Assembly (NCBI GenBank): GCA_903930505.1
Contig: CAIYYQ010000202.1
Coordinates: 1-23,583 of the forward strand
Direction of reading: 5' to 3'
Source: Methanobacteriota archaeon
GTDB lineage: Archaea > Thermoplasmatota > E2 > DHVEG-1
DNA: 23,583 nucleotides
The position numbers and the translations under genes are program-made. The notes beneath the pieces were generated by a model. It worked only from the letters and a program-made list of their open reading frames with translations, searched no databases and was not told the DNA's origin. This document shows positions 1 to 19,626 of the stretch, one piece after another. Position 1 is the stretch's first letter. Each line of letters opens with the position of its first letter.

Positions 1-725
1 AAACTCGTGAGATTAATCTTCCGCATCCGAACTGGATCCCCGGGGTTACGCGATCCGGGTTTGGTGAGGTGGTTGCTGATAGAATTGTCGGTGAGATTGA
101 CATGTATGATTTGATGAAGGCTGCGCTTCGTCAGCGGCCTGAGTATATCCTTGTTGGTGAGATTCGTGGGAAGGAGGCGTATGTGTTGTTTCAGGCGATG
201 GCAACCGGACATACTACGTATTCTACGTTTCATGCGGATTCTGCGAAGGCGCTTATCCATCGGTTAGAAGGAAAACCTATTGATATCCCGCGGGTGATGT
301 TACAGTCACTTGATATTATCACCATTCAAGTGAGTGCTCGGGTGAAAGACAAGCGCGTGAGAAGATGTAAGCAGATTGTTGAGATTATTGATATTGATCC
401 GACGACAAAAGAGATTCTGACAAATGAGGTGTTTCGGTGGGATCCGATTGAGGATAGGTTTGTTTATTCTGGGAAAAGTTATGTGTTGGAACGTATACGT
501 ACTCGTTGGGGTATGGGTAAAGACCGTCTAATTGAGGAGATAAAACATCGGGTGGAGATTCTTGAATGGATGCGTAAGCATGATATTCGATCGTTCAAGG
601 AAGTTGCTCATATTGTCTCACGGTATACAGAGAAACCAGTTGAGTTTATGGCTACGTTAAAGAATCCGCTAATTGAGGGTAAACCTAAAAAAGATGAAGT
701 TGATACTTCAATGGAAAAAAACTGA
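1..725 (+). CDS. Archaeal GspE/TadA-type pilus or secretion assembly ATPase, C-terminal part (5' truncated)
   Basis: Cytoplasmic hexameric ATPase that drives assembly of type IV pilus-like filaments. The gene enters from outside the window; the frame is open from base 3 and reads TREINLPHPNWIP, the conserved segment just after Walker A in this family. A Walker B region follows (ILVGEIRGKE) and then the histidine box (GHTTYSTFHADS), so the catalytic core is intact from there to the stop. The GTG at 69 is internal and is not the start. The last 90 or so residues are the usual charged C-terminal segment. Two TadC-like genes and pilin-like genes follow on the same strand, so this is the motor of that machine. 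The ATPase assignment is firm. Whether the machine builds a pilus, a pseudopilus or a secretion apparatus cannot be told from this fragment. Archaellum FlaI is less likely because no archaellum genes are nearby. Confidence 0.93.
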   Translation, partial: TREINLPHPNWIPGVTRSGFGEVVADRIVGEIDMYDLMKAALRQRPEYILVGEIRGKEAYVLFQAMATGHTTYSTFHADSAKALIHRLEGKPIDIPRVMLQSLDIITIQVSARVKDKRVRRCKQIVEIIDIDPTTKEILTNEVFRWDPIEDRFVYSGKSYVLERIRTRWGMGKDRLIEEIKHRVEILEWMRKHDIRSFKEVAHIVSRYTEKPVEFMATLKNPLIEGKPKKDEVDTSMEKN

Positions 726-844: not shown

Positions 845-1747
845 ATGCCATTAAATAATTATCAGCAATTTTGTTATAAGCGGCTAGGGCAATTCGCTGA
901 ACGAAAAGTAAATGAGAAACTCAATGCTGCTCTTGCATCTTCGCATATGGATGTCCGCGGTGCTGCGTACGTAGCGTTTTTGTTGATGACGTCTCTTCTT
1001 GTATTCGTTGTTTCTTTTATTGCGTTTGTGAGTTTTCTTATTGTTCTTGTCTATGTGATGCATATTGCTATTGATTTGATGCTGATTGTGATTTTTCTGA
1101 TTCTTCCTGCGATTTTATTTGGTGTAACGTATGCAATTGGTCTTTTTTTACCTTCGAGTAAAGCAAAAGCACGAAAGAAAAACATTGATGTGAATTTGGC
1201 GTATGCCGTGAATTTCATTGCTGCAATGTCCTCTGCAGGAATCACACCGACCGAGGTTTTTAAAAGTCTATCAAAGCAGGAGATATACGGTGAGGTTAAG
1301 GAAGAGGCTGCATGGATTTATCGTGATGTTGCGATGCTTGGTTCTGATATTATTACTTCGATTCGGAATAACATTGAGAGGACGCCGTCTCAACGGTTTA
1401 AGGAGTTTTTACAAGGGACTGTGGTTACTGTTACTTCTGGTGGGTCGTTGAAAACGTATTTTGTTGCCAAGGGTGATCAGTATATGCGTGAGAACCGCCA
1501 GGCGCAGAAACAACGCATTGAAAGTCTTGGGATTATGGCGGAAAGCTATGTGACTGCTGCGGTGGCTGGTGTGTTGATGCTTCTTATTGTTATCCCGCTT
1601 ATGATGATTATCAGTGTGGTCAGTGGATCGCTTTCTCCCAGTGGATTTATGGGCCAGATGACGCTTATGTATGTTATTGTTTTTGTGTTGATACCGATTA
1701 TTCACTTTGGATTTGCCTTTGTTATTAAATCTATGGCTAATGGATGA
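845..1747 (+). CDS. TadC/GspF-like membrane platform protein, first copy
   Basis: Polytopic membrane protein predicted to form the inner-membrane platform that couples the assembly ATPase to pilin polymerisation. It has 300 residues. Two hydrophobic segments lie at about residues 40-100. A cytoplasmic T2SSF-type helical domain follows at about 115-230 (the AYAVNFIAAMSSAGITP region is typical), and two more membrane segments lie at about 235-298. GGAG occurs at 829-832 and again directly before the ATG, which supports this start. It is immediately followed by a second paralogue eight bases downstream, as in many archaeal Tad-like loci that encode two TadC proteins. Family assignment is confident; the name of the specific system is not. 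Confidence 0.88.
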   Translation: MPLNNYQQFCYKRLGQFAERKVNEKLNAALASSHMDVRGAAYVAFLLMTSLLVFVVSFIAFVSFLIVLVYVMHIAIDLMLIVIFLILPAILFGVTYAIGLFLPSSKAKARKKNIDVNLAYAVNFIAAMSSAGITPTEVFKSLSKQEIYGEVKEEAAWIYRDVAMLGSDIITSIRNNIERTPSQRFKEFLQGTVVTVTSGGSLKTYFVAKGDQYMRENRQAQKQRIESLGIMAESYVTAAVAGVLMLLIVIPLMMIISVVSGSLSPSGFMGQMTLMYVIVFVLIPIIHFGFAFVIKSMANG

Positions 1748-1755
1748 TGATGTAA

Positions 1756-2646
1756 ATGGTATCAGAAATTCCTCAACCTGGTTTTATTAAAAAACTGATG
1801 ATTGCCGGGCAACTGAACCAGTTGATTGTTTCGATAAGTACTGTGGTATCTATAGTGATATTTATCGTGCTGATGATGTTGACGCTTATTGGCGTTCTCC
1901 ATACCTTTTTCACGTGGATAGATTTCCTTATCTTTGCGACGTTATCTGGAACAGGGATTTTTGGTTTTTATCTGTTAATTCATGCGAAGAGAATCCAGAA
2001 GATTGATGCGATTTTCCCTGATTTTGTCCGGGATCTTGCTGAGTCTCGTCGGGCTGGGATGACATTTACAAAAGCAATTGTGTTTGCTGCAAAAGGTAAC
2101 TATGGTATACTCACAGGGGAGATTCAGAAGATCGCTCAGCAGGTTTCTTGGGGAAGTAGCGTAGAAGATGCGTTGAGTGCTTTTGGCCAGCGGGTGCATA
2201 CTCGAACCATTCAGAGGACGGTTTCTTTGATTATTGAAGCAAGTAAAAGCGGTGGAAATATCGCGGATGTTCTTGATGCCGCGTCACGCGATGCTCGGGA
2301 GATTAAAATACTTGATGCGGAGCGGCGAGCTAATATGGCGTCGTATGTTGTTGTTATCTACGTGGGTATGCTTGTTTTCCTTGTGATTATTGCAGTGTTA
2401 TGCGGGCAGTTTCTTCCTGCGATGATTGTGCAGGATACTGGTGGTGGGGCTGGGAAGATGGGCGCTGGTCCTGAGCAGGTCGCTGCTATTACTACCGTCT
2501 TTTTTTATGCGGGTATTATGAATAGTCTTGGGTCTGGGGTTGTTGCTGGTGTTTTTGAGGATGGGACGTTTTCTTCTGGTGTGAAACATATGTTTATCAT
2601 GGTTTTGATCACCTGGTTTATGTTTAAATTTCTTATTGGTGTATAA
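1756..2646 (+). CDS. TadC/GspF-like membrane platform protein, second copy
   Basis: Second inner-membrane platform subunit, 296 residues, with the same layout as its upstream neighbour: paired N-terminal membrane segments (about 20-80), a soluble T2SSF domain (about 90-200, with PDFVRDLAESRRAGMT and the later helix-rich repeat), and C-terminal membrane segments (about 210-295). The soluble domain has the small-residue pattern seen in TadC (SGGNIADVLDAAS). The start is ATG 1756, eight bases after the previous stop, so translation is probably coupled. The two proteins likely form a heteromeric platform. The gap to the next gene is only 14 bases, so the pilin-like genes are probably in the same transcript. 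Confidence 0.88.
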   Translation: MVSEIPQPGFIKKLMIAGQLNQLIVSISTVVSIVIFIVLMMLTLIGVLHTFFTWIDFLIFATLSGTGIFGFYLLIHAKRIQKIDAIFPDFVRDLAESRRAGMTFTKAIVFAAKGNYGILTGEIQKIAQQVSWGSSVEDALSAFGQRVHTRTIQRTVSLIIEASKSGGNIADVLDAASRDAREIKILDAERRANMASYVVVIYVGMLVFLVIIAVLCGQFLPAMIVQDTGGGAGKMGAGPEQVAAITTVFFYAGIMNSLGSGVVAGVFEDGTFSSGVKHMFIMVLITWFMFKFLIGV

Positions 2647-2660
2647 ATGTTTTTGGGAGT

Positions 2661-5600
2661 ATGATGAAGAGATATAATCATGCGGTCAGTGAAGTACTTT
2701 CTATGTCGCTTTCTGTTCTTATTGTGATGGGAACGGTTGGTTCTGTTCTTTATTGGGGGACTCCATATATTGAGGATATTAAAGCGAACGCGGTGAATCA
2801 AGATGTATCGAATAAACTCGGTGTTGTTGTTGATAACATTTACGATATCAGTCATGAAACCCCTGGGTCACGGCGGACGTCTTCTCTGGATGTTTCTGGG
2901 GGATCCTTTGAGATGAATGATAGCGGAGATCGGTTGATTCTCTCGTATACATTGGATAATCAGTATTCCTTTGACGCTACAGGTTTTAATGATAATGATA
3001 ATTCTTTTAGTATAAGTGCTCAAAAGATGGTAGGTGGCTCTCCAACTTCAATATCAAGTAGTGCAAACGTGTACTGGTACAATGATGATCCTGTCACGAT
3101 TTTTAATGCCTTAAAAGAGTTTTCTGTTGTTGGTCCTCAGGGTCAAATGTATCCCGTGTTCCTGTTTAACGTTTCTTCTTTGTACTCAAAAATAACACTT
3201 GATCATCTTACTGCTGTGACCCTCCGATTGACACCGGTCAACGGTGTTACCGTTGTTGCCAATCAAACAGTACCAGTTACCGTATCCCACTTCCGAGGCG
3301 ATACATGTATGGAGACATTTTCTACTCCCCTTTCACGATTTTTTTCTGCTCCTTTGAACCCTGATGATGCTTTGCTGATTTCTTATCCGGGATACGTTGA
3401 ATCAACAAATCTTCTCAGTCTTTTTGAAAACGACTATGCGTCGCATAACCTATTTTTTTCTCTGGTTCTAGGAAGCAAGAATCAGATCAGTATCGACAAC
3501 ATCTTTTTCTCATCTGTATTTCATAAACGTGATATGTCATACTATCGGCCTCAATTGATTGTGAGTTATGTGTCCACCGCCTTGGAGCAGGGAACACCTG
3601 CTGATCTCAATGGTGAAATGAGTACGCAAACACCGGTTTTACGCGAAGATCCTCCGTCAGGTGTACAACAGGATTCCTTAAAAGAAACTGATTCGGTTCA
3701 TGTATATCGCTCTACATGCTCCTCGTCTGTTTCCTCTGAAAACGATGTTTTCGGTATTGTTCCTTGTCATCAGATGGTTTATGATGAGTCTTATGATTTC
3801 CAGGTGAAGCACACCGCTTACACAGCACTGTTCCAGGCACTATCTTCTTGTTCTCAGCAGCACCCTATTGTTGTAACCCGCGGAGAGTACGCAGTGCGAT
3901 ACACCCCTGGGAACTATTTATGCTATGTCGCCGATGATTCTTTTCCGGGTGAGTTGCCTGCTGTTCAAAAACACGTGTCAGTTGCTCAGGTTGATAATGA
4001 TTCGATTACCTACTGTGATCAATATGGTCAAGGGATTGACCTCCGGTACACTGCTGCTGAGGATACGGTGAAAGAGGAACTTGTTATCGATAGTTTTTCC
4101 CTGCTTCCCTCTCCTCCTTTGGGGTATAGGGATTTTGCCTTGTTTCATCATCTTCAAGCGTTTTCTTTGAGAACTGGTGAGACTATGGGTGTTCGATATG
4201 GGGAGAACCAGTTTCTTACTTCTTCGTCGGGTGCCTCAAAAATCTTGGAGATCACTGGGTCTGAACCTGTTTCTTTTATCAACAAAGAAAACCAGGTGGT
4301 GTTTTCGTTGCCTCGTCTGTATGCATGGGATAGTGCGACTCCAGCAAGTAAGATACTGTTAGAACGCACCGTTCGAGTTGATGAGTATGGTAATATCACT
4401 GTTTTGATTCGCACACCGTGGACGTGGCTTGCTGATAATACACGGGTGTACCCTGTTTTTATTGATGATACTGTTAATATTTATAATGCAATGGATGTGG
4501 AGAAAGGTGTTCTAGCAGGATGGATGTGGATGAAAACAGAGAATCCGCCTGATGCATCTGATGCATCACCAGGTATAATTCAGAAATATAATAAGCTATA
4601 TACTAAAGATGAATATAGAAATATAGAAAGCAGTGAAGATAAGATCTATAATACCTGGATGAGTGATGCTCAGGATTACTCTCATATTTTATTAATGTAT
4701 AAGTTCCCTCTTAGCGAAAGCGTAGAAAATATTAGACAGATACAGATACGGTGGGTGGGTTACTGTGATCAGAATTGGAGCCAAGATAAACGTGAAGAAA
4801 AGCCTGATCTTTTCTTATATATATGGAAAAAAGATACATGGGAGTTGGTGGAGTCAAGTCAAAATACTAAACAAAATGTAGAATTATCTGGCGATTATGA
4901 AAAAGATTTTGATTTGTACCTTGCTCAAAAAAACAACATAATTCTTTTACTTGTTGGTGGAATTGCAGACAAAACAATTCCTGGAAGTACTTATGAGGAT
5001 TATGTAGAGGTACAAGTTACTTCTAATTCTCCGCCCAGGATAGAAGAATCTCAGACTTCCCCTATTCCCAGAAATGGTGCAACGAATCAGTTGTTGAGTC
5101 CTACTCTTAAAGTCACTGTTCGTGATAGCGATCCTGGTGATCTTATGACGGCAACATTTTTTCTACAGATGGCTGGGGTATGGAAACCAGTCGGGGATAC
5201 TTTTACCGACCTGAAGGACAATACACAAGTCTCAGTTGATTTAAACACCCTTGATCCCCCAATAATCCTTGCTGAAAGTACTACATATCACTGGAAGGTA
5301 GAACTCAGAGATTCAGATCCTCAGAATGATGTTGTTATATCTACCTATAGTTTTACGTGCCATGATCCTGCCTATTTCGAAATATCTTCACCCACGGCAG
5401 GAGAAGCAATTGAAGGATCCAAAGTAACATGTAGTTGGAATGAAGGAGTTACCAGTCCTAATCTTAAATATCATTATATGCTTGAAGGTTACATTAATCA
5501 GTGGTCACCTTGGACAATACAAGAATCAGTCGTCTACTATAACCTTCCTTATGGGGATTACACGTTTATTTTACAGGGACAATCTCTTGATTCTCTCGAT

Positions 5601-6206
5601 CCAGACAATCCTGATCGCTGTGAAGAGCGTAGAGCTTTTACAGTCATAGGTTCTCTTCAGGATAGAGATGAACCATTATATAATTCCCCCTTTACATGTA
5701 AAAATCCGTTGCAGGGCACGGTCCGTATCGACCTCTATGATGGAGATGTGTTATTTGGTCGGATTTACTTGTTTGATCTCGGTCTCGTGAAACACACGTA
5801 TACTTCTATGACCCGTACCGATGTCTCCATCCTTGAAAACGATGCGTTGGTCGTTAACTCCTCAGGATCGGAGAGCATGATACAACCAAATGGGGTAGAA
5901 ATTAATGGTGATACCATCACCTTAAAAATCAATCAAATGCGGTCATCAACAGATTTCTATCAGAGTGGGAGTGGAAACCTTCATTTCACTTGTGTTCTCG
6001 TGGAAAACTTGATTCGTGAGATGCTTACAAATATTTACGAGTTAAAAATCCAGGTGTATGGTTCGTATGCGACTCCGTGGCTTGATTATCTTGAGACGAA
6101 AGGATTCGACCCAACCGATAATCCATCGGTATTGACATATCCTGTTGAAACTTCTGGAATGAAGGTAGTGCTTTTTCATTCATTGTGTAAAGCAGGGTTC
6201 TGGTGA
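2661..6206 (+). CDS. Giant pilin-like surface protein with split pilin domain and DNRLRE/Fn3-like insert
   Basis: About 1181 residues, predicted to be membrane-anchored or polymerised by the adjacent Tad-like machine with its bulk outside the cell. The N-terminus (KRYNHAVSEVLSM, then a hydrophobic helix to about residue 32) resembles archaeal class III signal peptides of DUF7289-type proteins. The C-terminus (about 1015-1181, GRIYLFDLG, then ILENDALVVNSSGS) matches the C-terminus of the next protein, so the pilin fold appears split. Between these are a DNRLRE-like domain (about 150-305, ending RPQLIVSYVS), a beta-rich region with GIDLRYT and YPVFIDDTV (about 405-605) of the kind found in large surface proteins, a beta domain (about 645-790) and Fn3-like domains (about 792-1010). 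GGGAG at 2655-2659 fits either ATG 2661 or ATG 2664. Function is inferred as adhesion or surface display; ligand unknown. Confidence 0.8.
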   Translation: MMKRYNHAVSEVLSMSLSVLIVMGTVGSVLYWGTPYIEDIKANAVNQDVSNKLGVVVDNIYDISHETPGSRRTSSLDVSGGSFEMNDSGDRLILSYTLDNQYSFDATGFNDNDNSFSISAQKMVGGSPTSISSSANVYWYNDDPVTIFNALKEFSVVGPQGQMYPVFLFNVSSLYSKITLDHLTAVTLRLTPVNGVTVVANQTVPVTVSHFRGDTCMETFSTPLSRFFSAPLNPDDALLISYPGYVESTNLLSLFENDYASHNLFFSLVLGSKNQISIDNIFFSSVFHKRDMSYYRPQLIVSYVSTALEQGTPADLNGEMSTQTPVLREDPPSGVQQDSLKETDSVHVYRSTCSSSVSSENDVFGIVPCHQMVYDESYDFQVKHTAYTALFQALSSCSQQHPIVVTRGEYAVRYTPGNYLCYVADDSFPGELPAVQKHVSVAQVDNDSITYCDQYGQGIDLRYTAAEDTVKEELVIDSFSLLPSPPLGYRDFALFHHLQAFSLRTGETMGVRYGENQFLTSSSGASKILEITGSEPVSFINKENQVVFSLPRLYAWDSATPASKILLERTVRVDEYGNITVLIRTPWTWLADNTRVYPVFIDDTVNIYNAMDVEKGVLAGWMWMKTENPPDASDASPGIIQKYNKLYTKDEYRNIESSEDKIYNTWMSDAQDYSHILLMYKFPLSESVENIRQIQIRWVGYCDQNWSQDKREEKPDLFLYIWKKDTWELVESSQNTKQNVELSGDYEKDFDLYLAQKNNIILLLVGGIADKTIPGSTYEDYVEVQVTSNSPPRIEESQTSPIPRNGATNQLLSPTLKVTVRDSDPGDLMTATFFLQMAGVWKPVGDTFTDLKDNTQVSVDLNTLDPPIILAESTTYHWKVELRDSDPQNDVVISTYSFTCHDPAYFEISSPTAGEAIEGSKVTCSWNEGVTSPNLKYHYMLEGYINQWSPWTIQESVVYYNLPYGDYTFILQGQSLDSLDPDNPDRCEERRAFTVIGSLQDRDEPLYNSPFTCKNPLQGTVRIDLYDGDVLFGRIYLFDLGLVKHTYTSMTRTDVSILENDALVVNSSGSESMIQPNGVEINGDTITLKINQMRSSTDFYQSGSGNLHFTCVLVENLIREMLTNIYELKIQVYGSYATPWLDYLETKGFDPTDNPSVLTYPVETSGMKVVLFHSLCKAGFW

Positions 6207-6319
6207 AGATAGATGATTCAAAAACAACGTCATCAAAACCGTTTTTGTGTGCTACGGAGCAGTTGTTCTTGTCTTCGTTCCTTTGTTTTCGTGTTATCTC
6301 CTTGGATTGTAACATCAAC

Positions 6320-6327
6320 TTTATATG
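6320..6327 (+). promoter_or_regulatory. Possible internal TATA box before the PKD-containing pilin-like gene
   Basis: A tttatatg motif lies about 25 bases upstream of an expected start near 6350, inside the 158-base gap between the 1181-residue gene and the ATG at 6365. It would give a short leader that still includes the strong Shine-Dalgarno sequence. The gap itself is otherwise unexplained. This is only a motif match. Confidence 0.35.
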
Positions 6328-6352
6328 GAAAAAAAAACATCTGCGTTGTAAC

Positions 6353-6358
6353 GGAGGG
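6353..6358 (+). promoter_or_regulatory. Ribosome binding site that fixes the start at 6365
   Basis: A ggaggg sequence lies six bases before ATG 6365. The longer reading from GTG 6203 would add 54 residues rich in Cys, Phe and Ser ahead of the pilin signal, with no comparable site, and would bury the class III signal peptide. Confidence 0.75.
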
Positions 6359-6364
6359 GATTTC

Positions 6365-8842
6365 ATGAAAAGGCACTGGCGATCAGGGGATGCAGTTTCA
6401 GAGATCCTAAGCATGATGTATATCCTCATCATTTCTATAACGATCATCGGCACCTTACTTGTATGGGCACCGCAACAACTGAATGAAAAAAAAGATGCTA
6501 TTCGAATAGAAAGCATTCACAATCAATTCACTACTTTTAACAATGCTATTGATGAGTTATTGAATCGTGGTGTTGGAAGTACAAAATCTGTTGAACTCAT
6601 AGGCGATACAGGATATCTTGAGAGCAGTTCCCAGGGGACACGTATGGTATTGTATCACAGTATAACAGAAAGTGGAAGTCCCCCTTATTCTACTGCTGAT
6701 TTTGCTTTCAGGGTTTCTGGTTTAGAATACGACAAAAACGACCCCGATGATCATACCTTTACCTACATTCAAGAGAGCCTACCACCTAATTTCATAAATT
6801 ACTTAAAAGCTAATGATAAAAATATACGTATGACTGGGACTGATCTTGAAACCGGTAACCCCCTCTTTTCAAATGATTACCTGTATTCTGAAATTACAGT
6901 GATCAGCGAAGCACAGCCATTATTTATCAATTTTTTTGATAATACTCAAATCGTTAGTTCCTCTGAAGCAACATGGAAATGGGATTTTAATTATACAAAT
7001 CAGGAACAAATGAATAAGAATCCAAGTGTAGATTCTACGAGCCAGAACCCGTCTATGCAGAAGTATACAGCACTGGGAAGATATACGACTTTGTTGACGG
7101 TTACTGATCGATGGGGTCAAGAAGTTCAAGTAATCCACGATGTGATCATCGAACCTAGTAATTATGGTGGTGTGGTCGCTGGTTTTACCTATTTTGTGGA
7201 AGAAGCACCACCGTCAACTTATGGATATATATATTCAAATATTGCGTATACCGGAAGAGATGTGTTTTTTGAAAGTGAATCTTTCATCCCCTCTTCTGTC
7301 TCGCCAACATATGTTTGGGATTTCGGAGATGGTTCCCCCCCATCTCTAGGATCGGTGAATCCATCACATACGTATAGTACACCCGGAAGATATCCGGTAA
7401 CACTGACAGTGACGAATCTTGCTAATTCGCAGAGTAATTTTTCTGTTCACTACATAACGGTCCTAAACTCTCCGCCTATTGCTGAATTTAGCTCTGATGC
7501 CACCTCTGATTCCCCAAAGAAGGTCAATGAGGTTGTAACTTTTTTTGATAATTCATATGATATACCAGATAAAGTTAAAACTGGGTGGCAATGGTCATGG
7601 GATTTCAATTATACGTCTCAGGAAGAGTATTCGGGGACGCCATATGAGGAGTCCGCCCAGAAAAATCAACAAAATCCCACCTATGTATATACAAGTGCTG
7701 GGAATTATACGGTCGCTCTTATTGTCACAGATTCATTAGGTGCTGTCAGTGACATAAAAACCCATGATATTGTTATTGGTGATGGTACTGCTGATCCTGT
7801 TGGTGCTGGATTCACCTACATGGGCGATACTCCTTGGGGTTCAGGAGGATTAAAGTCATCGAAAATAATGACAGGAGGTTATCTTGGACTCACACCTGAA
7901 TATATTTTGCCGAGTGATCCTGTCGAACCTGAAGAAGGATATTATTGGTCTTACGACGAGGATTTGCTCACTTATTACGGCGATCGCATTGGAATGCTTC
8001 GTCTTGCCATCCCTGATGAGCTTTTTCCCAAAGGAGATGATGTACAAACAAAAACCAGTGTCACGTATAAAGTTGGGTGGTATACGGATGAGGAGGGATC
8101 TACTCAATATATTTCAAAGTCCCATGTAATTACGATTTGGCAGCGGGAACCATACGCTGATTTTTCGTATAAAGTTGTTCATCAAAGTATTGTAGATACC
8201 AAAGACACCATGGGACAGCCTGTATCGTTACGAGGTTCTGTTCAAATCGACATCTTAATACCCTATAATACAAAATGGTCCTCGCTAGGTTTAAACTATG
8301 ATTCCAGTACCGATTTGGAGTGGGTGCTAGCAGGGAGAATCTTCCTCTTTGATCTTGGTTATCTTCGCTATGCAACACCCCAAGGTCAGACCTCACAGGC
8401 TGTTGTTTTTGAAAACGGTGCAATTCTTATTGAAGATCAACAAAGTGGATCCATCGTAAAAAACCCAAAGTTTTATGATGAATCTCGTGCAGAAGGTATC
8501 GGAACAGAGCTGGTCCATATCCAGGGAACAACAAAAGATTTCGTAATACACGTTGTACAGTTCAAGGGACCACAACAAGCCACTAGCTTTATGGGAACTC
8601 CGATAGGTCTGAAATGTACATTACTTGCGAGTACAGTAGTAGAACCAAGTGTTAATTATCAAAATAGATTACGTATTCAACTATTCGGGGATACAGCCCA
8701 AATCTGGCGTGATTTCCTTATAAATAATCATGGGTTCTCAGTTGAGAAATATTACCCAGAGAATATTATCTATAGCTATGGCAGTTATTATGGATCGACG
8801 CTCATGCTAGCCAGATCCGTGTTCCAATTAGAATTTAAATAA
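6365..8842 (+). CDS. Pilin-like surface protein with PKD domains inserted in the pilin domain
   Basis: About 825 residues. The frame is open from a GTG at 6203, but I choose ATG 6365. It is preceded six bases upstream by a strong ribosome binding site (ggaggg, 6353-6358), and it places the class III-like N-terminus MKRHWRSGDAVSEILSM at the start, matching the paralogue upstream. A hydrophobic helix follows to about residue 38. Three PKD-like domains are visible at about 190-262, 299-367 and 369-470. The middle one has the classic YVWDFGDGS. The outer two have WDFNYT-QE plus a longer loop, then GxYTxxLxVTD. The C-terminal 205 residues (GRIFLFDLG, VVFENGAILIEDQQSGS) match the C-terminus of the preceding protein. 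PKD domains usually mediate surface interactions; the partner here is unknown. Confidence 0.82.
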   Translation: MKRHWRSGDAVSEILSMMYILIISITIIGTLLVWAPQQLNEKKDAIRIESIHNQFTTFNNAIDELLNRGVGSTKSVELIGDTGYLESSSQGTRMVLYHSITESGSPPYSTADFAFRVSGLEYDKNDPDDHTFTYIQESLPPNFINYLKANDKNIRMTGTDLETGNPLFSNDYLYSEITVISEAQPLFINFFDNTQIVSSSEATWKWDFNYTNQEQMNKNPSVDSTSQNPSMQKYTALGRYTTLLTVTDRWGQEVQVIHDVIIEPSNYGGVVAGFTYFVEEAPPSTYGYIYSNIAYTGRDVFFESESFIPSSVSPTYVWDFGDGSPPSLGSVNPSHTYSTPGRYPVTLTVTNLANSQSNFSVHYITVLNSPPIAEFSSDATSDSPKKVNEVVTFFDNSYDIPDKVKTGWQWSWDFNYTSQEEYSGTPYEESAQKNQQNPTYVYTSAGNYTVALIVTDSLGAVSDIKTHDIVIGDGTADPVGAGFTYMGDTPWGSGGLKSSKIMTGGYLGLTPEYILPSDPVEPEEGYYWSYDEDLLTYYGDRIGMLRLAIPDELFPKGDDVQTKTSVTYKVGWYTDEEGSTQYISKSHVITIWQREPYADFSYKVVHQSIVDTKDTMGQPVSLRGSVQIDILIPYNTKWSSLGLNYDSSTDLEWVLAGRIFLFDLGYLRYATPQGQTSQAVVFENGAILIEDQQSGSIVKNPKFYDESRAEGIGTELVHIQGTTKDFVIHVVQFKGPQQATSFMGTPIGLKCTLLASTVVEPSVNYQNRLRIQLFGDTAQIWRDFLINNHGFSVEKYYPENIIYSYGSYYGSTLMLARSVFQLEFK

Positions 8843-8855
8843 GGAGGAATGGAAT

Positions 8856-11800
8856 GTGAGATGCAGAAAGTTTCATCAAAACGCTGTCGCAAACATCCTA
8901 GGATATCTTTTTTCTTTTACTCTGATCTCTATGATTATGTTGATCTCCCTCATGACTACCACATCCATTGTTGATCAAAAAAAACAAGAGGCAGCTGGTC
9001 TTGAGGCACAAAACGTTGCAAATCAAATATCTGATGCGATGATCGATACAGTTACTGTCAGCGAGTCCCTGCCTTATGCGCAATATTATAGCCTGTTGAA
9101 CCTCCCTCAGAAATTCGCAGGGTTGGATTACAATGTCACACTCACAAATGAAGAGGTTACTGTTTCTACGACTGATGGGAGGATTCAGAAAAGCACCCTG
9201 AATTACAACACGGAAAATTTACAGGTGGACATTTCAGGTAAATTAACCAGCGGGGAAAAAAGCGTTTCTGTGGCATATTCTCCTTCAGAATCTCTTTATA
9301 AAATTGATTTTGGGACAGGCGATTCCAGCGCAAGTCACTCCCCTGTGAAAGCCGGGTATCTGTTCGCAACAGGGAAAACAACCATCGACGCCACCACCCC
9401 GCCGGAGTGGTATGTCGTTGGCTCTTCTGCGAATCCTCAGGTGGGCGATAGAGGGGGTGTCGTCGGAGTTAATGATTGGTCAGGATTTTGGCATGGTGTA
9501 CCAGTAGAACCATGGGTGTTTCAAGACGGTGATCACAATTGGCAAAATTATCCTTACCAACGCCCTCTTTATGCGGATCCGGATTTAGACGGCATAACTC
9601 CATTATTCGCGGGATACGGGTATGCTGAATGGGGTGGTCTCTATGCATTCGATGAAGCGGGTGGTGAACCCTTTATCTTCCTTGATACGAATTCAAACTC
9701 GGATAGTATACCCTGGGTGTATGATGCAGGTGATAATTTTGGATATGGAAATGCTTTTTATTATATGCCTGGCGCTATGGGCGCCTATTTTCCACAAACA
9801 AATATCGCTCTTTTGGATCCTGACGGCAATGGTATCTTAGCAGCTCCTAATCCTCTTTCAGTTCCTCCTCGTCCTGGGGGGCTTTTTGCTTTCGATGCAC
9901 ACAATATCCCATATGTTTATCGGGATAATGATCAGGTGGGTAGTCCTAATTATGGTATATATAATACCCCGAACCCGGGAGAAGGCATTCCGGGAGATGT
10001 CGTCGTTTATCCATCTTTAAATAGTTATCGAGCAAAGTACCGCATCCCGATTAAACTCACCCGTGATTCTACTCAGCCATTAACTGATATACCAGTGGAA
10101 ATTGTTCTTTCATCACAAGATATAAAAATGGATGAACTTGTCGGAACAAATACATATTCCTGTTTTTTCTACGATCCTGATCCAAACGCTCTTAAAACAC
10201 TACCGTGGAGTATAGACTATGTAAAATCGTATCCGTCCGGGTATTTTAGCAATGTCCTCAATTTCAATAGTATCAATGAACATACTGTGTTCCGGGTTAA
10301 CGTTTCTTTTGATCAGGACCAAACGGAAAAATATGTTTATCTCTACTATGGATTACCTGTTCCTTCGCCTAACAACAAGAAAGCTGTCACAGATTTTTAT
10401 TATACCCCGGAAGGTTTTAATCAATGGAATAAAAAATATTCTACTTCAAAGGATGAAGGAGCGTATTCAATTACTTGCGATGGAAATGATTTTATCTACG
10501 TAGCTGGGTATAAAACCGAAGATCAAGGGAATGCGAAGGATTGGTGGCTGAAACAATTCACTGTGAACGGATATGAATATGATCAAGCAGCTGTAGCTGG
10601 AACCACTGACCCTGGTTGGAATAAAACATTTGGCAATACCGGTGTTGACGATGAAGCGTTTTCTGTTACCACCTACGGTAGTGATGTGTATGTTGCAGGG
10701 TATAAAACAATTTCTGTAGGGAATGCTGATTGGTGGATTAAAAAATTTCAACGCAATGGAGAAGAGTATCCATCTTGGGATAAAGTGATTGATGGTGGAA
10801 ATAATGGTGATGATGTAGCCCGATGTGTTGCCGTGCGATCGGGGAATGTGTATGTCGCAGGGTATAAAACAAGTTCCTTAGGAGATAAAGATTGGTGGAT
10901 TAAAAAATTTGATAACAATGGGAACTCCCCCAGCGGTTGGAATGATATTCAATTTGGTGGAACTGGAAATGATTGTGCATATGCGCTTGCTATTGACAAC
11001 AATAATCAATATGTTTATGTTGTCGGAAGCTATTATTCTGACATTGGAAACGGTTTGGATTGGTGTGTGAAAAAGTTTTCCGCCTCTTCAGGAGGAGAAA
11101 TAACAGATGGATGGCCAAAAATCATCAATAACCCTGGCGATGATGTCGCGTATGCTGTTGCTGTCGATGATGATGATGCTGTGTATGTCGCTGGATATTA
11201 TACAACCACCAATAATGGAAAAGACTGGCTTGTGATGAAGTTCGACGAAGCTGGTGGCGAAGAGTGGAGTAAGGCATTTAGAGGCGCCGATGGTAATGTT
11301 GATGATGTTGCCTATAGTCTTGAACTTATACGAACGAACTGGGGCTCATATTGGCATTACTCCCCTGGTGAAATTGTTTCGCTCGATCCTGATGGAAACC
11401 AATGGCAAGCAACGCCGACCATAAATCAGCCGGGTGGTCTGTACGCCCTTGCGCCAAATGGAGAGCCGTATACTTTTGCATATCCAGGGGCCGACTGGAC
11501 GTACAATGGTGAAAGCCCAATCGAGTATGACCCGGATCATAATGAGAAAGATGCTAACCCTACATCAGGTGATTTCGCAGGACTTTATACTACAGATTTA
11601 TTAGGCAACGCATACATTTTCCAAGACACTATCAGAAACTGGAAATTTAATACTGGAGAACATTACAAATGTGTTGGTGGTGTTAACATTTCACCTGATG
11701 TCGATTATTCTTATGGTGGATATTACGCAGTGGACACAACCGATAGTCATGAGCCGTTCACCTTCAAAGATTTAAGTACTCTGTACGTCACTGGATATTA

Positions 11801-13271
11801 CACAAAGGGATCAAATCATCAGTGGAATATTAAGTGTTTAAGGCCCGATGGTGCTACTATATCAGATAGCATATCAGATAACGGGTATTCGTTACAAGGA
11901 AGCCCCTATTCTCTATGTATCGATAGTTATTCATATTGGTATGCCGCAGGGTATATCCCAGGTGGATTAACTGATAAAGACATGATGATTGTAAAAGGCG
12001 GCCCATCTGCTGCATGGACGAACTATGATCCGCGCATCTGGTCTTGTTCCTATATAACATATCTCGCTAACAGTTGTGGTGATGGTTTACATTCAAATAC
12101 AGGTTATGACCATCGTATCGTTTCAAAGGATTATGAGCTTGATCTCACAACGTCTGATGATGTGATGTATATTGTAGATTTAAATATAAACGCACATGGA
12201 AGATTCTCGACATCATCGTGGCAGTACCAGTTGAGTGCGTGTCATACTGGGTTGATTATCATGAGCCAAGATGGAAAGGTAAATTATAATCTACCAGCCA
12301 AACTTAGCGCTACCTCAACAAATGCTTATGTTCTTTCAGTTCGTGATCTTCTTACTTCCCCTCAAGAACCTGAAAAATCTCAATTTAATTTTAGTAAGTA
12401 TGTAAATGGTGTTCCTCAACAGTCGTCTCAGGTAGTAAAATCTATTCCGTATTTAGCTGCTGCCGGCGTTAAAAGTACCTGGGGTGAGGGGCTTCTTCTC
12501 AGAGCATATATATATAAAGAAGGAGGAAAATTAGTCATTAAAGGATACTTGTATCACCCAACAACGTTCGCACCATATCCAACAGAAATCACCTTTACTG
12601 AAGATTTATCCTCTTCTTTTAAAAAGGGACGGATTGGGGTCGTTAACATGTTTCATGACGATAGCATTGATCGCTATGGTCAAACCACAGTAATTAATTC
12701 GATTAGGGTGTTGAAAACAACGAAAGACCCAATCAATGTTGTTGTAGGAGCTTCAGAGGGAAGAAATTTTGGATGGATATGGCCAACGGTGGGAGGTATA
12801 AAAGTAAACGGTGAAGCTGAGTATAACGATGCGTCGTCCCTATTTCCGGATCCGTTGTATGACGATTACGTTAAGGTCCCAATACAATACGGTGTCCCTA
12901 ATTATGATCCCGTTTCTGGGAACCTAAACGATTTTAGTCGTTTCACCTTCAAAAAAATTAAAGACCCTGGCAGATACATGATTACGCTCACAACAGGCGG
13001 AAAAGATCAGGCTGATTCTTGCTCTCTCAACTATTGGTATCAAGAACGAGGACAACTTCCTCCTGATAACATTAAATCGATTCTTATTCCTGAAACAGAT
13101 GCAAACACGGTCAAACGTATTCACGTTATCCTGGAGATTCCTGAAGGCAAGGCATCCGGTGACTTCTATCTGTTATTCTACAAGAATGAAGGCGGGAACC
13201 CACTCGATAAACCAATATCCTCTATAACTTTAGATCGGATTGAACGAAACATAGGATTTGATGTAACATAG
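8856..13271 (+). CDS. Giant pilin-like protein with a seven-bladed beta-propeller
   Basis: 1471 residues starting at GTG 8856, nine bases after the strong site aaggagg (8841-8847). The N-terminus (CRKFHQNAVANILGYLF, then a hydrophobic helix to about residue 38) is pilin-like, so this is predicted to be a surface subunit of the same machine. Two repeats built around DPD...GGLYAFD...PFIF occupy about 240-385. DUF2341-like sequence lies at about 390-515. Seven propeller blades follow from 533 to 1049, each with D-D/A-x-S/A-V, VYVAGYKT or similar, and WWIKKF. Blade six is split by about 150 residues (824-972) carrying three more copies of the first repeat type. The C-terminal 420 residues are beta-rich and unassigned. 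Probable role: binding or display at the surface, with calcium likely at the DPDGN loops (inference). It could alternatively be an S-layer-associated protein anchored by its helix. Confidence 0.8.
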   Translation: MRCRKFHQNAVANILGYLFSFTLISMIMLISLMTTTSIVDQKKQEAAGLEAQNVANQISDAMIDTVTVSESLPYAQYYSLLNLPQKFAGLDYNVTLTNEEVTVSTTDGRIQKSTLNYNTENLQVDISGKLTSGEKSVSVAYSPSESLYKIDFGTGDSSASHSPVKAGYLFATGKTTIDATTPPEWYVVGSSANPQVGDRGGVVGVNDWSGFWHGVPVEPWVFQDGDHNWQNYPYQRPLYADPDLDGITPLFAGYGYAEWGGLYAFDEAGGEPFIFLDTNSNSDSIPWVYDAGDNFGYGNAFYYMPGAMGAYFPQTNIALLDPDGNGILAAPNPLSVPPRPGGLFAFDAHNIPYVYRDNDQVGSPNYGIYNTPNPGEGIPGDVVVYPSLNSYRAKYRIPIKLTRDSTQPLTDIPVEIVLSSQDIKMDELVGTNTYSCFFYDPDPNALKTLPWSIDYVKSYPSGYFSNVLNFNSINEHTVFRVNVSFDQDQTEKYVYLYYGLPVPSPNNKKAVTDFYYTPEGFNQWNKKYSTSKDEGAYSITCDGNDFIYVAGYKTEDQGNAKDWWLKQFTVNGYEYDQAAVAGTTDPGWNKTFGNTGVDDEAFSVTTYGSDVYVAGYKTISVGNADWWIKKFQRNGEEYPSWDKVIDGGNNGDDVARCVAVRSGNVYVAGYKTSSLGDKDWWIKKFDNNGNSPSGWNDIQFGGTGNDCAYALAIDNNNQYVYVVGSYYSDIGNGLDWCVKKFSASSGGEITDGWPKIINNPGDDVAYAVAVDDDDAVYVAGYYTTTNNGKDWLVMKFDEAGGEEWSKAFRGADGNVDDVAYSLELIRTNWGSYWHYSPGEIVSLDPDGNQWQATPTINQPGGLYALAPNGEPYTFAYPGADWTYNGESPIEYDPDHNEKDANPTSGDFAGLYTTDLLGNAYIFQDTIRNWKFNTGEHYKCVGGVNISPDVDYSYGGYYAVDTTDSHEPFTFKDLSTLYVTGYYTKGSNHQWNIKCLRPDGATISDSISDNGYSLQGSPYSLCIDSYSYWYAAGYIPGGLTDKDMMIVKGGPSAAWTNYDPRIWSCSYITYLANSCGDGLHSNTGYDHRIVSKDYELDLTTSDDVMYIVDLNINAHGRFSTSSWQYQLSACHTGLIIMSQDGKVNYNLPAKLSATSTNAYVLSVRDLLTSPQEPEKSQFNFSKYVNGVPQQSSQVVKSIPYLAAAGVKSTWGEGLLLRAYIYKEGGKLVIKGYLYHPTTFAPYPTEITFTEDLSSSFKKGRIGVVNMFHDDSIDRYGQTTVINSIRVLKTTKDPINVVVGASEGRNFGWIWPTVGGIKVNGEAEYNDASSLFPDPLYDDYVKVPIQYGVPNYDPVSGNLNDFSRFTFKKIKDPGRYMITLTTGGKDQADSCSLNYWYQERGQLPPDNIKSILIPETDANTVKRIHVILEIPEGKASGDFYLLFYKNEGGNPLDKPISSITLDRIERNIGFDVT
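9570..9950 (+). repeat. Protein-level repeats of the DPD / GGLYAFD type, N-terminal pair
   Basis: Two repeat units within the 1471-residue protein, at about residues 240-280 and 319-360. Each runs DPD-x-D/N-G, a variable proline-rich stretch, then GGL-Y/F-AFD, then P-F/Y-x-F/Y and an acidic loop. Related units recur at about residues 841, 891 and 955. The DNA copies are diverged, so the duplication is old. Confidence 0.6.
10452..12002 (+). repeat. Seven beta-propeller blade repeats, sixth interrupted
   Basis: Blade starts are about residues 533, 608, 668, 709, 765, 816 and 1009. Each unit has an acidic pair, a hydrophobic strand, VYVAGY or a close variant, and D-W-x-x-K-K/M-F. Blades two and three are near-identical at DNA level over about 70 bases (10686-10759 and 10848-10921, offset 162). 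The count of seven matches a closed propeller ring. Confidence 0.72.
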
Positions 13272-13304
13272 GATTAAAAAAAAGAGTAGAGAGGTGGAAA
13301 AGAT

Positions 13305-13844
13305 ATGAAGCATGATGACCATGCCCAGATGCTGGTGTTTGAATCTGTGTTCTTCGCAGCAACAGTGGTACTTTCCTTGGTTTTTCTCTATCAAGTTTCA
13401 CCGCATTCGGTAATTATTGATGTTCATTCTACTGATTTAGCAGCAATAGGTAAAAATACGCTATATACCTTACATAACGATGAGATAACTCCACTCTGCC
13501 CAGGGTATCCTACGCGAAAATTAGATCACTATTTGATCACAAACGCGTACGGTGATCTCACTTCAGATCTCCGAAAGATTATCCCCTCGACAATCATGTA
13601 CAATATCAATATTACGAATGGTGAAGACACTATGTTTTGGTGCAATTCATTCGGTGATCACGCTGTTGCGGATCGTTTGACCCCGGGGACCCCTCTTGTC
13701 GTTGTTCACTGTCCTGTGTCCATCCCCTCAGCAATACTTGATGCATACCAAAGTGATCTTTACAATGATGGTAACCCAATCGGACCGTTTTATGGATATG
13801 ATGGGAATTTGTACGAGGTTCAATTACAGCTGTGGTATATATGA
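13305..13844 (+). CDS. Small pilin-like protein
   Basis: 179 residues. The N-terminus KHDDHAQMLVFESVFFAAT has a charged stretch, a small residue at the predicted -1 position and a glutamate six residues into the hydrophobic helix, which resembles a type IV pilin-like class III signal. The rest is a compact beta-rich domain with cysteines at about residues 66, 113 and 136. The start follows gaggtgg (13291-13297) by seven bases. I do not recognise a named family with confidence. It resembles the small pilin-like DUF proteins found next to TadA/TadC pairs in haloarchaea. Its stop overlaps the next start (ATGA), so the two are translationally coupled and likely act together, perhaps as minor pilins. 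Confidence 0.75.
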   Translation: MKHDDHAQMLVFESVFFAATVVLSLVFLYQVSPHSVIIDVHSTDLAAIGKNTLYTLHNDEITPLCPGYPTRKLDHYLITNAYGDLTSDLRKIIPSTIMYNINITNGEDTMFWCNSFGDHAVADRLTPGTPLVVVHCPVSIPSAILDAYQSDLYNDGNPIGPFYGYDGNLYEVQLQLWYI

Positions 13845-14401
13845 TCAAAACAACGAAAACAACCGGAATAAAAACAACAACATATCGCGTTCTTAAAAAA
13901 GATGATCAAGGGCAACTCATTATGTTAATGGGTTTCACTCTTGTTTTCGCGGTCATGATTATCGGTGCCATCTCCTCAGAGATTTCAGATATTGATGTTC
14001 TTGTTCCCCAACGACGATCCAGTGAATTGGTAACGGAGTTTATCTACCTCAAAGACACATTTGGAACCGCGTTGAACTACCAGCTTGCAACTCTGAAGAT
14101 TACACAACCTTCTGGTGAGCTCCCTACATTAATTACCTATGAGGGCGACCTGTACGGAAGCTCAGTTTCCTCTCCGCTTATTACCACCTATGTGAGCCAA
14201 ACAAGTAACTACTTTCGTGCCCTTGAATTCACCCATAATATGGTGTTCTCCGCAACGTACAAAGGATTAGATTACTCCCATAGATCCTTAGAGGGAGATG
14301 TCTACTACGTTCAAGTTACCCTATCCCTAAAAGATGACACTGGATTGATTATTGAACCTGTTGTATACTCTGTCGTTTGTAAAGCACCGCAAGTACCTTA
14401 G
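13841..14401 (+). CDS. Small pilin-like protein (DDQGQ-type N-terminus)
   Basis: About 186 residues from ATG 13841. An earlier GTG at 13832 is in frame, but ATG 13841 overlaps the previous TGA in an ATGA arrangement typical of coupled genes. The segment KKDDQGQLIMLMGFTLVFAV gives a charged region, glycine at the predicted -1 position and then a hydrophobic helix, as in the DUF7261/DUF7266-like small proteins of archaeal pilus loci (named from memory, not searched). The next segment, SEISDIDVLVPQRRSSELVTEF, is predicted helical and amphipathic. The remaining 110 residues look beta-rich. A pseudopilin or minor pilin role is inferred from position and N-terminus; no enzymatic motif is visible. 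Confidence 0.72.
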   Translation: MIKTTKTTGIKTTTYRVLKKDDQGQLIMLMGFTLVFAVMIIGAISSEISDIDVLVPQRRSSELVTEFIYLKDTFGTALNYQLATLKITQPSGELPTLITYEGDLYGSSVSSPLITTYVSQTSNYFRALEFTHNMVFSATYKGLDYSHRSLEGDVYYVQVTLSLKDDTGLIIEPVVYSVVCKAPQVP

Positions 14402-14436
14402 GTAATAAAAATGGATGATTGGAAAACCGTGAGAAT

Positions 14437-15705
14437 ATGATGAAACGCAATCTCTTCCAGAAGAACAACTCTGGAATCATATCAATACTGGAAATGGTGA
14501 TAGCAACCGCTATTATCTTTACGGTTGTCGGGTTGTTCTACACGTCAGTAAACAATCTCATCGGGATTTACGTACGATCAGATGTTGATCTCAAAGCAAA
14601 ATGTTTAGACGTCTGTGAAGTATTAACGAGAACCCCTGGGTTATCCAATGATTTAGCAAGAAACTGGGAAGATAAAACAGGTCTCCCCAGCCAGATAGGA
14701 TTGGCAGCTACACCAACACTTTCGTACGGTACGTTTCATTTTTCTCTAGCGGATCCAAATACACCTATTCCAGATACACCTCCCCTCTATCAACATTTTT
14801 TTGATACTCCATATGGGAATGTGATTTCTTCCTGTTTTCTTGCGGGTACACAAGTAGCAACACCCGATGGAACATTCAAAGCAATTGAAACCATTCACGT
14901 TGGTGATGTCGTCATGTCTTTAGACCGGGAAACCAATAAGGTTGTTCCTCGGACTGTTGTCAACGTCCTCCATCATACACCTGACGAGATGACAGATTAT
15001 TACCTTGTCCTCAATGGTTTTCTAAAGGTAACCCCTAACCATCTTTTCTATGATACAGGGATATGGCATTCCTTCGGACAGATTACTGTGGGTAGCATCA
15101 TCCATGGTGTTCCTATTTTTTCTGTAGAAAAGGTTTACAAAAAAGTACCAACGTTTGATTTAACTGTGGAACATGATCACAACTACCTCGTTCGCTTTTC
15201 AAATAATCCGATTGTCGTTCATAATACAGATCCTGTTGTTGACTCTAGTCTATGGTTACCCGCAAGTAAAAACGCCATTATAAATGAGAAAGATTTTGAA
15301 ACATTTGGTTTTAATTACTACGTAGAATACACCCTCTATCCATTAGATCATTCTCAGGGAGGCATTTACGAAGTAAAAGGAGAAAATGCGTTTCCCTACG
15401 CTGTTCTTGATGCTAATAAAATCGATAAATTAAAAACTCTACCCTACAGTGACATAAAAAATATTCTCGGATTTAAAGAAGATACTTCGTATCAATTCTA
15501 CGATTTTTCTATAGACATAACGAGCTTATACTACTTTGGATCTAAATCATACACGTATGGAGCATCATACGAATCCAGAGATACTATCGTCTCGATTAGG
15601 CGTAACATATTGATTTACCATCCTCCAACATACGGCACTAGTCCAACAGATATTATCCAACCATTTTATGAAGGTGGTCAAATAACCATCTCCCTTTACA
15701 AGTGA
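14437..15705 (+). CDS. Pilin-like protein containing a Hint/mini-intein domain
   Basis: About 422 residues from ATG 14437 (ATG 14440 is an alternative; a TTG at 14419 would add six). A gtga at 14429-14432 supports 14437. The N-terminus (KNNSGIISILEMVIATAII) is the most pilin-like of the locus: a small residue, then a hydrophobic helix with glutamate near position six. After about 100 residues of pilin body comes a complete Hint module. It starts with Cys (CFLAGTQVATPDG), has block B TPNH, block F TFDLTVEHDHNYLV, and ends VVHN followed by Thr. The remaining 153 residues are beta-rich and look like the continuing pilin headgroup. No homing endonuclease is present. If spliced, exteins of about 132 and 153 residues would join. 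It could instead self-cleave or act in surface anchoring. Confidence 0.85.
   Translation: MMKRNLFQKNNSGIISILEMVIATAIIFTVVGLFYTSVNNLIGIYVRSDVDLKAKCLDVCEVLTRTPGLSNDLARNWEDKTGLPSQIGLAATPTLSYGTFHFSLADPNTPIPDTPPLYQHFFDTPYGNVISSCFLAGTQVATPDGTFKAIETIHVGDVVMSLDRETNKVVPRTVVNVLHHTPDEMTDYYLVLNGFLKVTPNHLFYDTGIWHSFGQITVGSIIHGVPIFSVEKVYKKVPTFDLTVEHDHNYLVRFSNNPIVVHNTDPVVDSSLWLPASKNAIINEKDFETFGFNYYVEYTLYPLDHSQGGIYEVKGENAFPYAVLDANKIDKLKTLPYSDIKNILGFKEDTSYQFYDFSIDITSLYYFGSKSYTYGASYESRDTIVSIRRNILIYHPPTYGTSPTDIIQPFYEGGQITISLYK
14833..15225 (+). other. Mini-intein / bacterial intein-like Hint domain, 131 codons
   Basis: The module is bounded by Cys1 (codon 14833-14835, preceded by Ser-Ser) and by terminal His-Asn (Asn codon 15223-15225), with Thr at +1 (15226-15228). 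Block A reads CFLAGTQVATPDG with the usual IETIHVGDVVMS continuation. Block B is KVTPNHLFY. Block F is FDLTVEHDHNYLVRF. Block G is IVVHN. All residues needed for standard protein splicing are present. The length is near the minimum for an endonuclease-free Hint fold. Related A-type intein-like domains often cleave rather than splice, so activity is uncertain. Confidence 0.83.
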
Positions 15706-18867: not shown

Positions 18868-19626
18868 ATGAGCCACATGTCAGATACCTATAGAGTAGCT
18901 TTTTACATCAGAGTAAGCCGGGAAGAACAGGCAAAAGGCTATAGTCCTGAGGGACAAAAATCTACTCTGGAAACCTGGATAAAAGAAATCGGGTGGAAGT
19001 GGGTAAAAACCTATCAAGATGAGGTAAGTGGGAAAGATACCAGACGAGTACGATTTCAAGAGATGATCACGGATGCAAAGAACGGATTGTTTAACGGCAT
19101 TTGTATGCTTGACAACGATCGATTCTCCCGATCGACAAAAGATGTTCTCAATATCATGGATGATCTCCTTACATATGGAATAAAATTACATATTTACAAC
19201 CTCCGTCATATCGATATCTACAGCGATCAGGGACGATTTATTCTTACAAATTTTGCTGCATTCAGTGAATTTTTCAGAGGGCAATTAGCCTCGAAGATCC
19301 GTGTTGGTGTGAAACAAAAGATGAAGAACGAATGGTTTGGACAAGCCCCGTACGGGTATACGGTTCTCTCTGATATCGTAGGTAATAGAAAAAGAAACAC
19401 AAGACTTGTAGAAAATCCAGAAGAGCAAACAATATTGACTGAGATGCATAAATTACGAGATGAAGAGAAAAGTTACACAGAAATTGCCAAATATCTGAAT
19501 GAAAAAAGAATACCAACCCGACTTAAAAGAAATGGTGGTACCTGTAGTTGGTATCCAGGTACAGTGAGAAATATTCTTGTACGACCACAGGTGGATCTCA
19601 ATGAAACAAAAGAGAAAGAATCTTGA
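18868..19626 (+). CDS. Serine recombinase, short form lacking the C-terminal zinc ribbon
   Basis: 252 residues; a DNA strand-exchange enzyme of the resolvase/invertase superfamily. The catalytic domain (about 8-150) has the YIRVSREEQ motif, with nucleophile Ser17 and Arg15 retained, and DRFSRS at 84-89. A Recombinase domain (PF07508-like, about 155-240, GQAPYGYT through YPGTVRNILVRP) follows. Large serine integrases normally continue with a zinc ribbon and coiled coil; here the protein stops after the Recombinase domain. ATG 18868 is used, though ATG 18877 is a possible start after gatgag. The gene overlaps the next one by 26 bases, implying translational coupling. The context is an AT-rich island, suggesting a mobile element; attachment sites were not identified with certainty. 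Confidence 0.9.
   Translation: MSHMSDTYRVAFYIRVSREEQAKGYSPEGQKSTLETWIKEIGWKWVKTYQDEVSGKDTRRVRFQEMITDAKNGLFNGICMLDNDRFSRSTKDVLNIMDDLLTYGIKLHIYNLRHIDIYSDQGRFILTNFAAFSEFFRGQLASKIRVGVKQKMKNEWFGQAPYGYTVLSDIVGNRKRNTRLVENPEEQTILTEMHKLRDEEKSYTEIAKYLNEKRIPTRLKRNGGTCSWYPGTVRNILVRPQVDLNETKEKES

Follow-up and report, generated by a model that had tools for sequence, protein, structure and literature searches.

An endonuclease-free Hint domain set into a variable loop of a minor-pilin-like protein from an archaeal Tad-like locus

Background

What does a Hint domain do in the middle of a pilin, and is it a splicing element or a lasting part of the protein that carries it? The question is raised by a stretch of 23,583 nucleotides from a Methanobacteriota archaeon (assembly GCA_903930505.1, contig CAIYYQ010000202.1), which was analysed as a whole and is called the window here. 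It contains a Tad-like pilus locus in which one pilin-like subunit is interrupted by a Hint domain of 131 residues, and an initial annotation, made from the letters alone, had taken this domain for a splicing-competent mini-intein.

The reading that we favour, with a probability of roughly 0.6, is that of a resident, endonuclease-free Hint domain, which would act like the A-type bacterial intein-like (BIL) domains and sits in a loop of variable content within a minor-pilin-like protein of a Tad-like archaeal filament. Sequence comparison suggests that it probably cuts or rewires the pilin after export and is not a classic mobile intein.

Results and discussion

A catalytically complete Hint domain inside a prepilin-like protein

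The subunit and its parts, all on the forward strand, are the following.

14440..15705, forward: Hint-bearing pilin-like subunit, 421 residues; eight pilin-family relatives match 82-100% of its length
14476..14571, forward: prepilin-type hydrophobic N-terminal segment (residues 13-44); Glu18 is invariant in 11/11 aligned pilins
14440..14832, forward: N-flank (N-extein, 131 residues); its end part is the leader that is missing along with the Hint in a paralogue
14833..15225, forward: Hint domain, 131 residues, endonuclease-free, from Pfam and NCBIfam matches and predicted fold
14833..14835, forward: Cys1 codon (N-terminal nucleophile; Cys132), invariant in 10/10 aligned sequences
15031..15042, forward: TPNH (block B TxxH; residues 198-201), invariant in 10/10
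15178..15180, forward: His247 of the block F region, invariant in 10/10
15220..15225, forward: terminal His-Asn (residues 261-262), invariant in 10/10
15226..15228, forward: Thr at +1 (Thr263), unique to the window copy among 18 Hints of 17 pilins
15226..15702, forward: C-flank (C-extein, 159 residues) with W-x4-K and then the pilin core VLDxxKI...LGF...YDF

The ATG at 14440 is used as the start, and an alternative in-frame TTG lies at 14419. Translation of 14833-15225 gives 131 residues, CFLAGTQVATPDG...TPNH...FDLTVEHDHNYLV...VVHN, followed by Thr (codon 15226-15228), so that the coordinates of the initial annotation are exact and its motifs (Cys1, TPNH, His-Asn, then Thr) are all present. 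The Pfam Hint match of the window pilin (E 5.2e-9) is beyond chance and, like that of PT-HINT (E 1.5e-6), passes its own cut-off; on the Hint alone, the NCBIfam model intein_Cterm (TIGR01443) passes with 26.7 bits against a cut-off of 15.6, and intein_Nterm (TIGR01445) falls slightly under its cut-off with 22.6 against 24.5. Pfam and NCBIfam profile searches of the protein gave no match to an endonuclease family, in agreement with what had been claimed; the weak Pfam match to Hom_end_hint was ruled out as an endonuclease, the model being of Hint type. The predicted fold of the Hint matches solved BIL and intein structures. Cys1, a block B TxxH, a C-terminal His-Asn and Thr at +1 are thus found together in the window copy, as in class 1 inteins, and the Hint fold with a His-Asn end is that of an A-type BIL domain. 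The guanine-cytosine content of the domain, 0.407 with flanks of 0.410 and 0.354, gives no sign of a recent import.

The placement between a pilin helix and a beta-rich head, also proposed at the outset, was borne out: a prepilin-like N-terminus (...NNSG-IISILEMVIATAIIFTVVGLFY...) lies upstream of the Hint and a beta-rich C part downstream. A helix at residues 10-44 appears in the predicted model of the N-terminus, and strands of the C-flank are predicted at 93-100, 108-112, 120-132 and 147-158. The core blocks of the C-part model have a predicted local distance difference test score (pLDDT) of about 70-88, with an overall mean of 64.1, and no PDB structure matched this model at E <= 0.001. 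Type IV pilins have a glutamate at position 5; the conserved Glu of this family sits one position further, six residues past the Gly/Ala of the presumed cleavage site in most members (e.g. SG-IISILE).

The position following the Hint

Canonical splicing requires Cys, Ser or Thr at position +1. In a true splicing mini-intein, the Thr+1 of the window copy would take the acyl group from Cys1, Asn262 would cyclise and the mature pilin would be the ligated N and C parts, 290 residues in all. We hold this to be unlikely: the window copy has every catalytic residue of class 1, Thr+1 among them, and a poly-Hint protein from the same order has Thr or Ser at +1 after 8/9 Hints, yet among 18 Hints of 17 pilins, Thermoplasmatota genomes having been added, the window Thr is the only +1 nucleophile, and none of the 17 others has Cys, Ser or Thr there (N, D, D, E, D, E, E, R, Q, P, L, G, A, Y, V, A, A).

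A wider census gave 72 distinct Hint segments, after removal of those with identical first 70 residues or with a start ahead of the open frame. A His-Asn end was found in 48 (Cys1 in 47/48, TxxH in 45/48), and the 24 segments without one by the rule used include many that are partial or divergent. When 12 rows from two tandem-array proteins (L048 and L065) are omitted, one of the 36 remaining Hints that end in His-Asn has Cys, Ser or Thr at +1, and it is again the window copy; one omitted row, from L065, has its true end 10 residues past an internal His-Asn, with Glu at +1.

A-type BIL domains are described, in the available excerpts of PMC4031507, PMC5874633 and PMC7664689, as ending in His-Asn, having no +1 nucleophile, splicing by means of a freed amine and mainly cleaving; on the nucleophile the excerpts differ, with 'often lack' in PMC5874633 and 'lack' in PMC4031507. 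Apart from the window copy, the +1 residues of the pilin Hints agree with this description. Of the initial annotation, the catalytically complete mini-Hint is supported; splicing as the conserved outcome of the family (+1 nucleophile in 1/18) is not supported, and the Thr to which it pointed is real in the window copy but not common to its relatives. The cleavage or cross-linking that it named as an alternative would fit better.

The insertion site in Hint-less relatives

The Candidatus Thermoplasmatota metagenome-assembled genome (MAG) of isolate CSMAG_2286 (G001) has this part of the pilin cassette in two copies on one contig, one encoding a Hint pilin (L011:4671-6182) and the other a Hint-less paralogue of 365 residues (L010:10343-11440). 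The Hint pilin of this genome also has a C-terminal type I dockerin domain (PF00404 E 1.7e-7).

The insertion was compared between this paralogue and the pilins of two other genomes, G070 and G253, the window pilin itself standing outside the comparison. Aligned with the G070 pilin, in which a PKD domain follows the Hint, the paralogue is collinear in its N part; about four of its residues then replace about 24 leader residues, the Hint and about six following residues of G070, and past this gap both proteins are collinear through a PKD-like domain, so labelled in the paralogue because it aligns with PKD_4 of G070 (Pfam gave none), and the entire C part. Against the G253 pilin, with a Hint and then two PKD stretches, the gap includes the first PKD stretch too. 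The flush insertion of a class 1 intein was thus not found, the Hint being missing together with leader and following residues, and a spliced product would therefore keep a scar.

Among 18 loci found with the extein profile or in earlier searches, nine have N and C pilin parts without a Hint between them, eight have one part only and one (G161) has a Hint; the C-part scores of the nine are weak (9-37 bits), the frame of one, G267, is cut by the contig end, and 3/9 encode only 187-220 residues. Because Hint-less relatives keep both pilin parts, the pilin core is, in sequence terms, an N helix part plus a C beta part, with the Hint as an optional insert in its variable loop. Other relatives have a Hint together with a PKD domain, two Hints or none. 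The difference between presence and absence of the Hint is, from these alignments, modular and not flush at the splice points.

For the splicing mini-intein it can be said that the N and C parts form one pilin core in Hint-less relatives, but the insertion is not flush, a Hint-less relative being also without about 24 leader and about six following residues, and PKD-type domains share the loop, which is variable and no conserved functional site. Of the continuity that had been proposed as a check in Hint-less homologues, that of the pilin around the site was found, and that at the junctions was not, since the leader and following residues are also gone.

Conservation and distribution of the Hint pilin

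A protein search with the window pilin returned 10 proteins. Besides its own copy there were eight relatives of pilin type, at 31-59% identity, and a further protein, labelled Thermococci, which matches 32% of the query, that is, the Hint part. Cys1, TPNH, His247, His261 and Asn262 do not vary in any of the 10 aligned sequences, and the Hint is exactly 131 residues long in 8/8 (the window pilin and P0004-P0010), among which mean identity is 50.2% in the Hint against 41.5 and 42.2% in the pilin parts. With invariant catalytic residues, constant length and a Hint more conserved than the pilin parts, the domain looks selected, with its catalytic residues kept.

These residues also bear on the view that the Hint has retired as a catalyst and serves only as a folded module for display, in the manner of the PKD domain that relatives have at this position. 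The sharing of one loop with PKD-like domains agrees with it, but a structural domain would not need the Cys1, TPNH, His and Asn that are invariant in 10/10, nor the Cys1 that is kept in 47/48 Hints of a set selected by its His-Asn end, and we regard such retirement as very improbable.

One point weighs against the reading that we favour: conservation among close relatives rests on a search with a Hint-bearing query in which matches had to be 0.55-1.75 times as long as the query, and which therefore could not return short Hint-less pilins. An extein-only profile run against the protein database found six proteins, all Hint-bearing, in a word-based search, so that absence of Hint-less ones is not implied. 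A full-length profile scan of genome contigs gave three loci, each matched through the Hint and one of them (L001) useful; a scan of viral contigs gave one Hint-only relative.

With the full-length profile (E <= 1e-6) 27/389 sampled Thermoplasmatota genomes were positive, and 19/52 in the order of G001, most of the matches listed covering the Hint only; with the extein profile (E <= 1e-3) the figures were 25/389 and 9/52. Similar Hints also occur in an Elusimicrobia MAG, a Blackburnbacteria MAG and a viral contig. On a viral contig (L004:4548-5690) a Hint with an HN end and Lys at +1 lies in a protein that adjoins an open reading frame (ORF) of 1492 residues.

Proposed action of the resident Hint

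For a resident Hint of A-type-BIL-like character we infer a course that begins with export, and with it the reactions as well as when and why they would occur. The pilin would be exported and the Hint would fold outside the membrane, where Cys1 would turn the Ser131-Cys132 bond into a thioester and Asn262 would cyclise and cut the C-terminal junction. The main products would be an anchored N part, a free Hint and a beta-rich C part, with a variable share of religated pilin formed when the new amino group attacks the thioester; in the window copy, Thr+1 may also permit ordinary splicing.

The thioester could instead be captured by a lysine or another nucleophile of the C part, of a neighbouring subunit or of a surface molecule, stapling the filament. 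The model for such conjugation would be, by analogy, the Tetrahymena BUBL BIL2, which moves its ubiquitin-like neighbour to lysine, and we consider it improbable here. A candidate acceptor is the lysine of a W-x4-K motif past the Hint, which 11/17 Hint pilins have and 6/17 lack (in the G173 pilin the motif lies before and inside the Hint, with none after). It may be mere pilin structure; it is not in the Hint-less relative examined, a comparison of one sequence. The post-Hint W-x4-K as acceptor is suggestive only, as a lead.

Hints in sister subunits and in tandem arrays

The pilin is not the only carrier. At locus L001 of G001 a Hint lies in the first large subunit after TadC, immediately past a VYWYDSET motif, and the window homologue has VYWYNDDP at the same motif and no Hint; a second homologue of the large subunit in G001 has a Hint at a different, later site (residues 783-913), and G070 and G253 have Hints in both large subunit and pilin. 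The large-subunit Hints of G139, G173 and G185 keep Cys1 and TPNH and end in YFADGF[LM][VA][RK]S, without His-Asn; G173 has two such ORFs, near-copies within the Hint, which brings the sister-subunit Hints without His-Asn to four. All four ORFs are homologous to the window large subunit at both ends by blastp (25-30% identity). Their Hints form one well-supported group in the Hint tree, apart from the well-supported pilin-Hint group of the same three genomes, and two Hint types have therefore been inherited side by side there. A single origin of the pilin Hints is neither shown nor excluded, with five changes needed in the tree for the pilin label and 7/36 inner branches well supported.

The Hints could also be built-in pilus ligases, a reading that we take as rather unlikely: the thioester-forming Hints of several subunits in one filament would open or excise themselves and pass N parts to lysines of adjacent subunits. 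If it were true, filament and adhesins would be stitched covalently without sortase or other enzymes, and the trait would come and go with swappable cassettes.

Several proteins have more than one Hint. A pilin of G218 (L042:8839-12234) has two far apart, and a PKD protein of G061 (L046:3708-5804) has two, the second beginning with Arg and not Cys1. The poly-Hint protein L048:159-8930 (G101:C62), whose frame reaches the end of its contig, contains an uninterrupted series of nine complete Hints (29-69% mutually identical, residues 1485-2820), with Cys1 and His-Asn in 9/9, TxxH missing in 2/9 and Thr or Ser at +1 after 8/9; the spacers, of 1-5 residues, are TCSE, TGV, TGCT, TCAIE, TC, T, SK and TC. 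In P0013, labelled Thermoplasmatales, nine Hints with similar spacers were found, and in P0014 ten, one without a Cys start and two whose ends were not found, with spacers that are mostly a single C, T or S; all three proteins have a subtilase domain. If they splice, their micro-exteins would join into a short peptide. P0023, P0026 and P0032 are further tandem-Hint proteins, several with single-Lys spacing, and one-residue spacing is not confined to archaeal arrays.

The Tad-like locus of the window

Upstream of the Hint pilin, the following genes are found.

3..725, forward: TadA-type ATPase, C-terminal part (PF00437 E 1.1e-18)
845..1747, forward: TadC-like membrane protein 1 (PF00482)
1756..2646, forward: TadC-like membrane protein 2 (PF00482)
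2661..6206, forward: large pilin-like/adhesin subunit without Hint; Hint in the homologues of G001, G070, G253, G139, G173 and G185
6203..8842, forward: pilin-like subunit with PKD domains (PF18911 E 2.1e-24)
8856..13271, forward: large pilin-like/adhesin subunit (DUF7266)
13305..13844, forward: small pilin-like subunit, 179 residues; order kept relative to the Hint pilin
13832..14401, forward: small pilin-like subunit, 189 residues; order kept relative to the Hint pilin

The end of a PF00437 ATPase and two PF00482 proteins confirm the archaeal Tad-like locus first suggested, and the Hint pilin, with its prepilin-type N-terminus and a gene beside those of the TadA ATPase and TadC-like proteins, has the features of a minor pilin of such a system. 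The gene order is the same in G070 and G253 and is spread over two contigs in G001.

The nearest genome by proteasome alpha (G092, 95% identical) has TadC-like proteins 91-92% and a DUF5698 protein 91% identical, in the same order, with unrelated large ORFs (L089:4647-17897) in place of the whole pilin cassette of window 2661-15705; the window pilin genes gave no tblastn match in L089 at E <= 1e-5, and a search of G092 with the 1471-residue window adhesin was empty, a result that alone shows nothing. Elsewhere in the window, a serine-recombinase-like ORF of 252 residues overlaps an HNH endonuclease ORF at 18868-19969, possibly a small mobile element, and a divergent relative of type II glyceraldehyde-3-phosphate dehydrogenase lies on the reverse strand at 22244-23311 (109 bits against a cut-off of 185).

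Significance

An archaeal Tad-like pilus locus is a defined kind of machine, and BIL-type equipment is kept in it here; any cut or ligation would readily show in filament composition. One pilin is available in Hint-bearing, Hint-less and PKD-bearing form, which offers a natural comparison. Were the Hints to conjugate subunits, they would provide an enzyme-free route to covalent pili.

Comparison with known systems

Searches of open-licence PMC papers listed none on archaeal pilins that contain a Hint or an intein; the available part of PMC12487129 lists the Hint Pfam family in marine bacteria. The Hedgehog C-terminal (Hog) domain is C-terminal, has N-terminal chemistry only and carries a sterol-recognition region (excerpts of PMC5874633 and PMC7664689), whereas the window Hint is internal, 131 residues long, with an intact His-Asn and a pilin core after it. 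The Pretoxin HINT (PF07591) profile matches barely past its Pfam cut-off (28.9 against 27.7 bits), and the best plasmid matches (31-36% identity) are often PT-HINT proteins of polymorphic-toxin type; a toxin module was rejected on the grounds that the Hint is followed by a pilin core, common to Hint-less pilins, and not by a toxin domain. BUBL BIL2 of Tetrahymena (PDB 6y75/6tmm), which conjugates its N part to lysine according to the excerpt of PMC8616854, differs in having ubiquitin-like flanks where the window Hint has pilin parts.

Class 1 mini-inteins share with the window copy all catalytic positions and Thr+1, but the pilin Hint is not flush and occupies no conserved functional site, its +1 residue is not conserved and other domains share its loop. 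We do not file the Hint strictly as BIL domain or intein, since the window copy has Thr+1 and the chemistry is deduced. A-type BIL domains such as that of Clostridium thermocellum (PDB 2lwy) have, like the window Hint, the Hint fold, Cys1, TxxH, a terminal His-Asn and no endonuclease. BIL domains are bacterial domains of variable protein regions (excerpts of PMC5874633, PMC7765530 and PMC4031507); insertion in such regions, given as a BIL feature in PMC5874633, is matched by the variable pilin loop, and the sister pilins likewise have no +1 nucleophile. The window Hint differs from them in being archaeal, in being kept within a pilin family and in the Thr+1 of the window copy.
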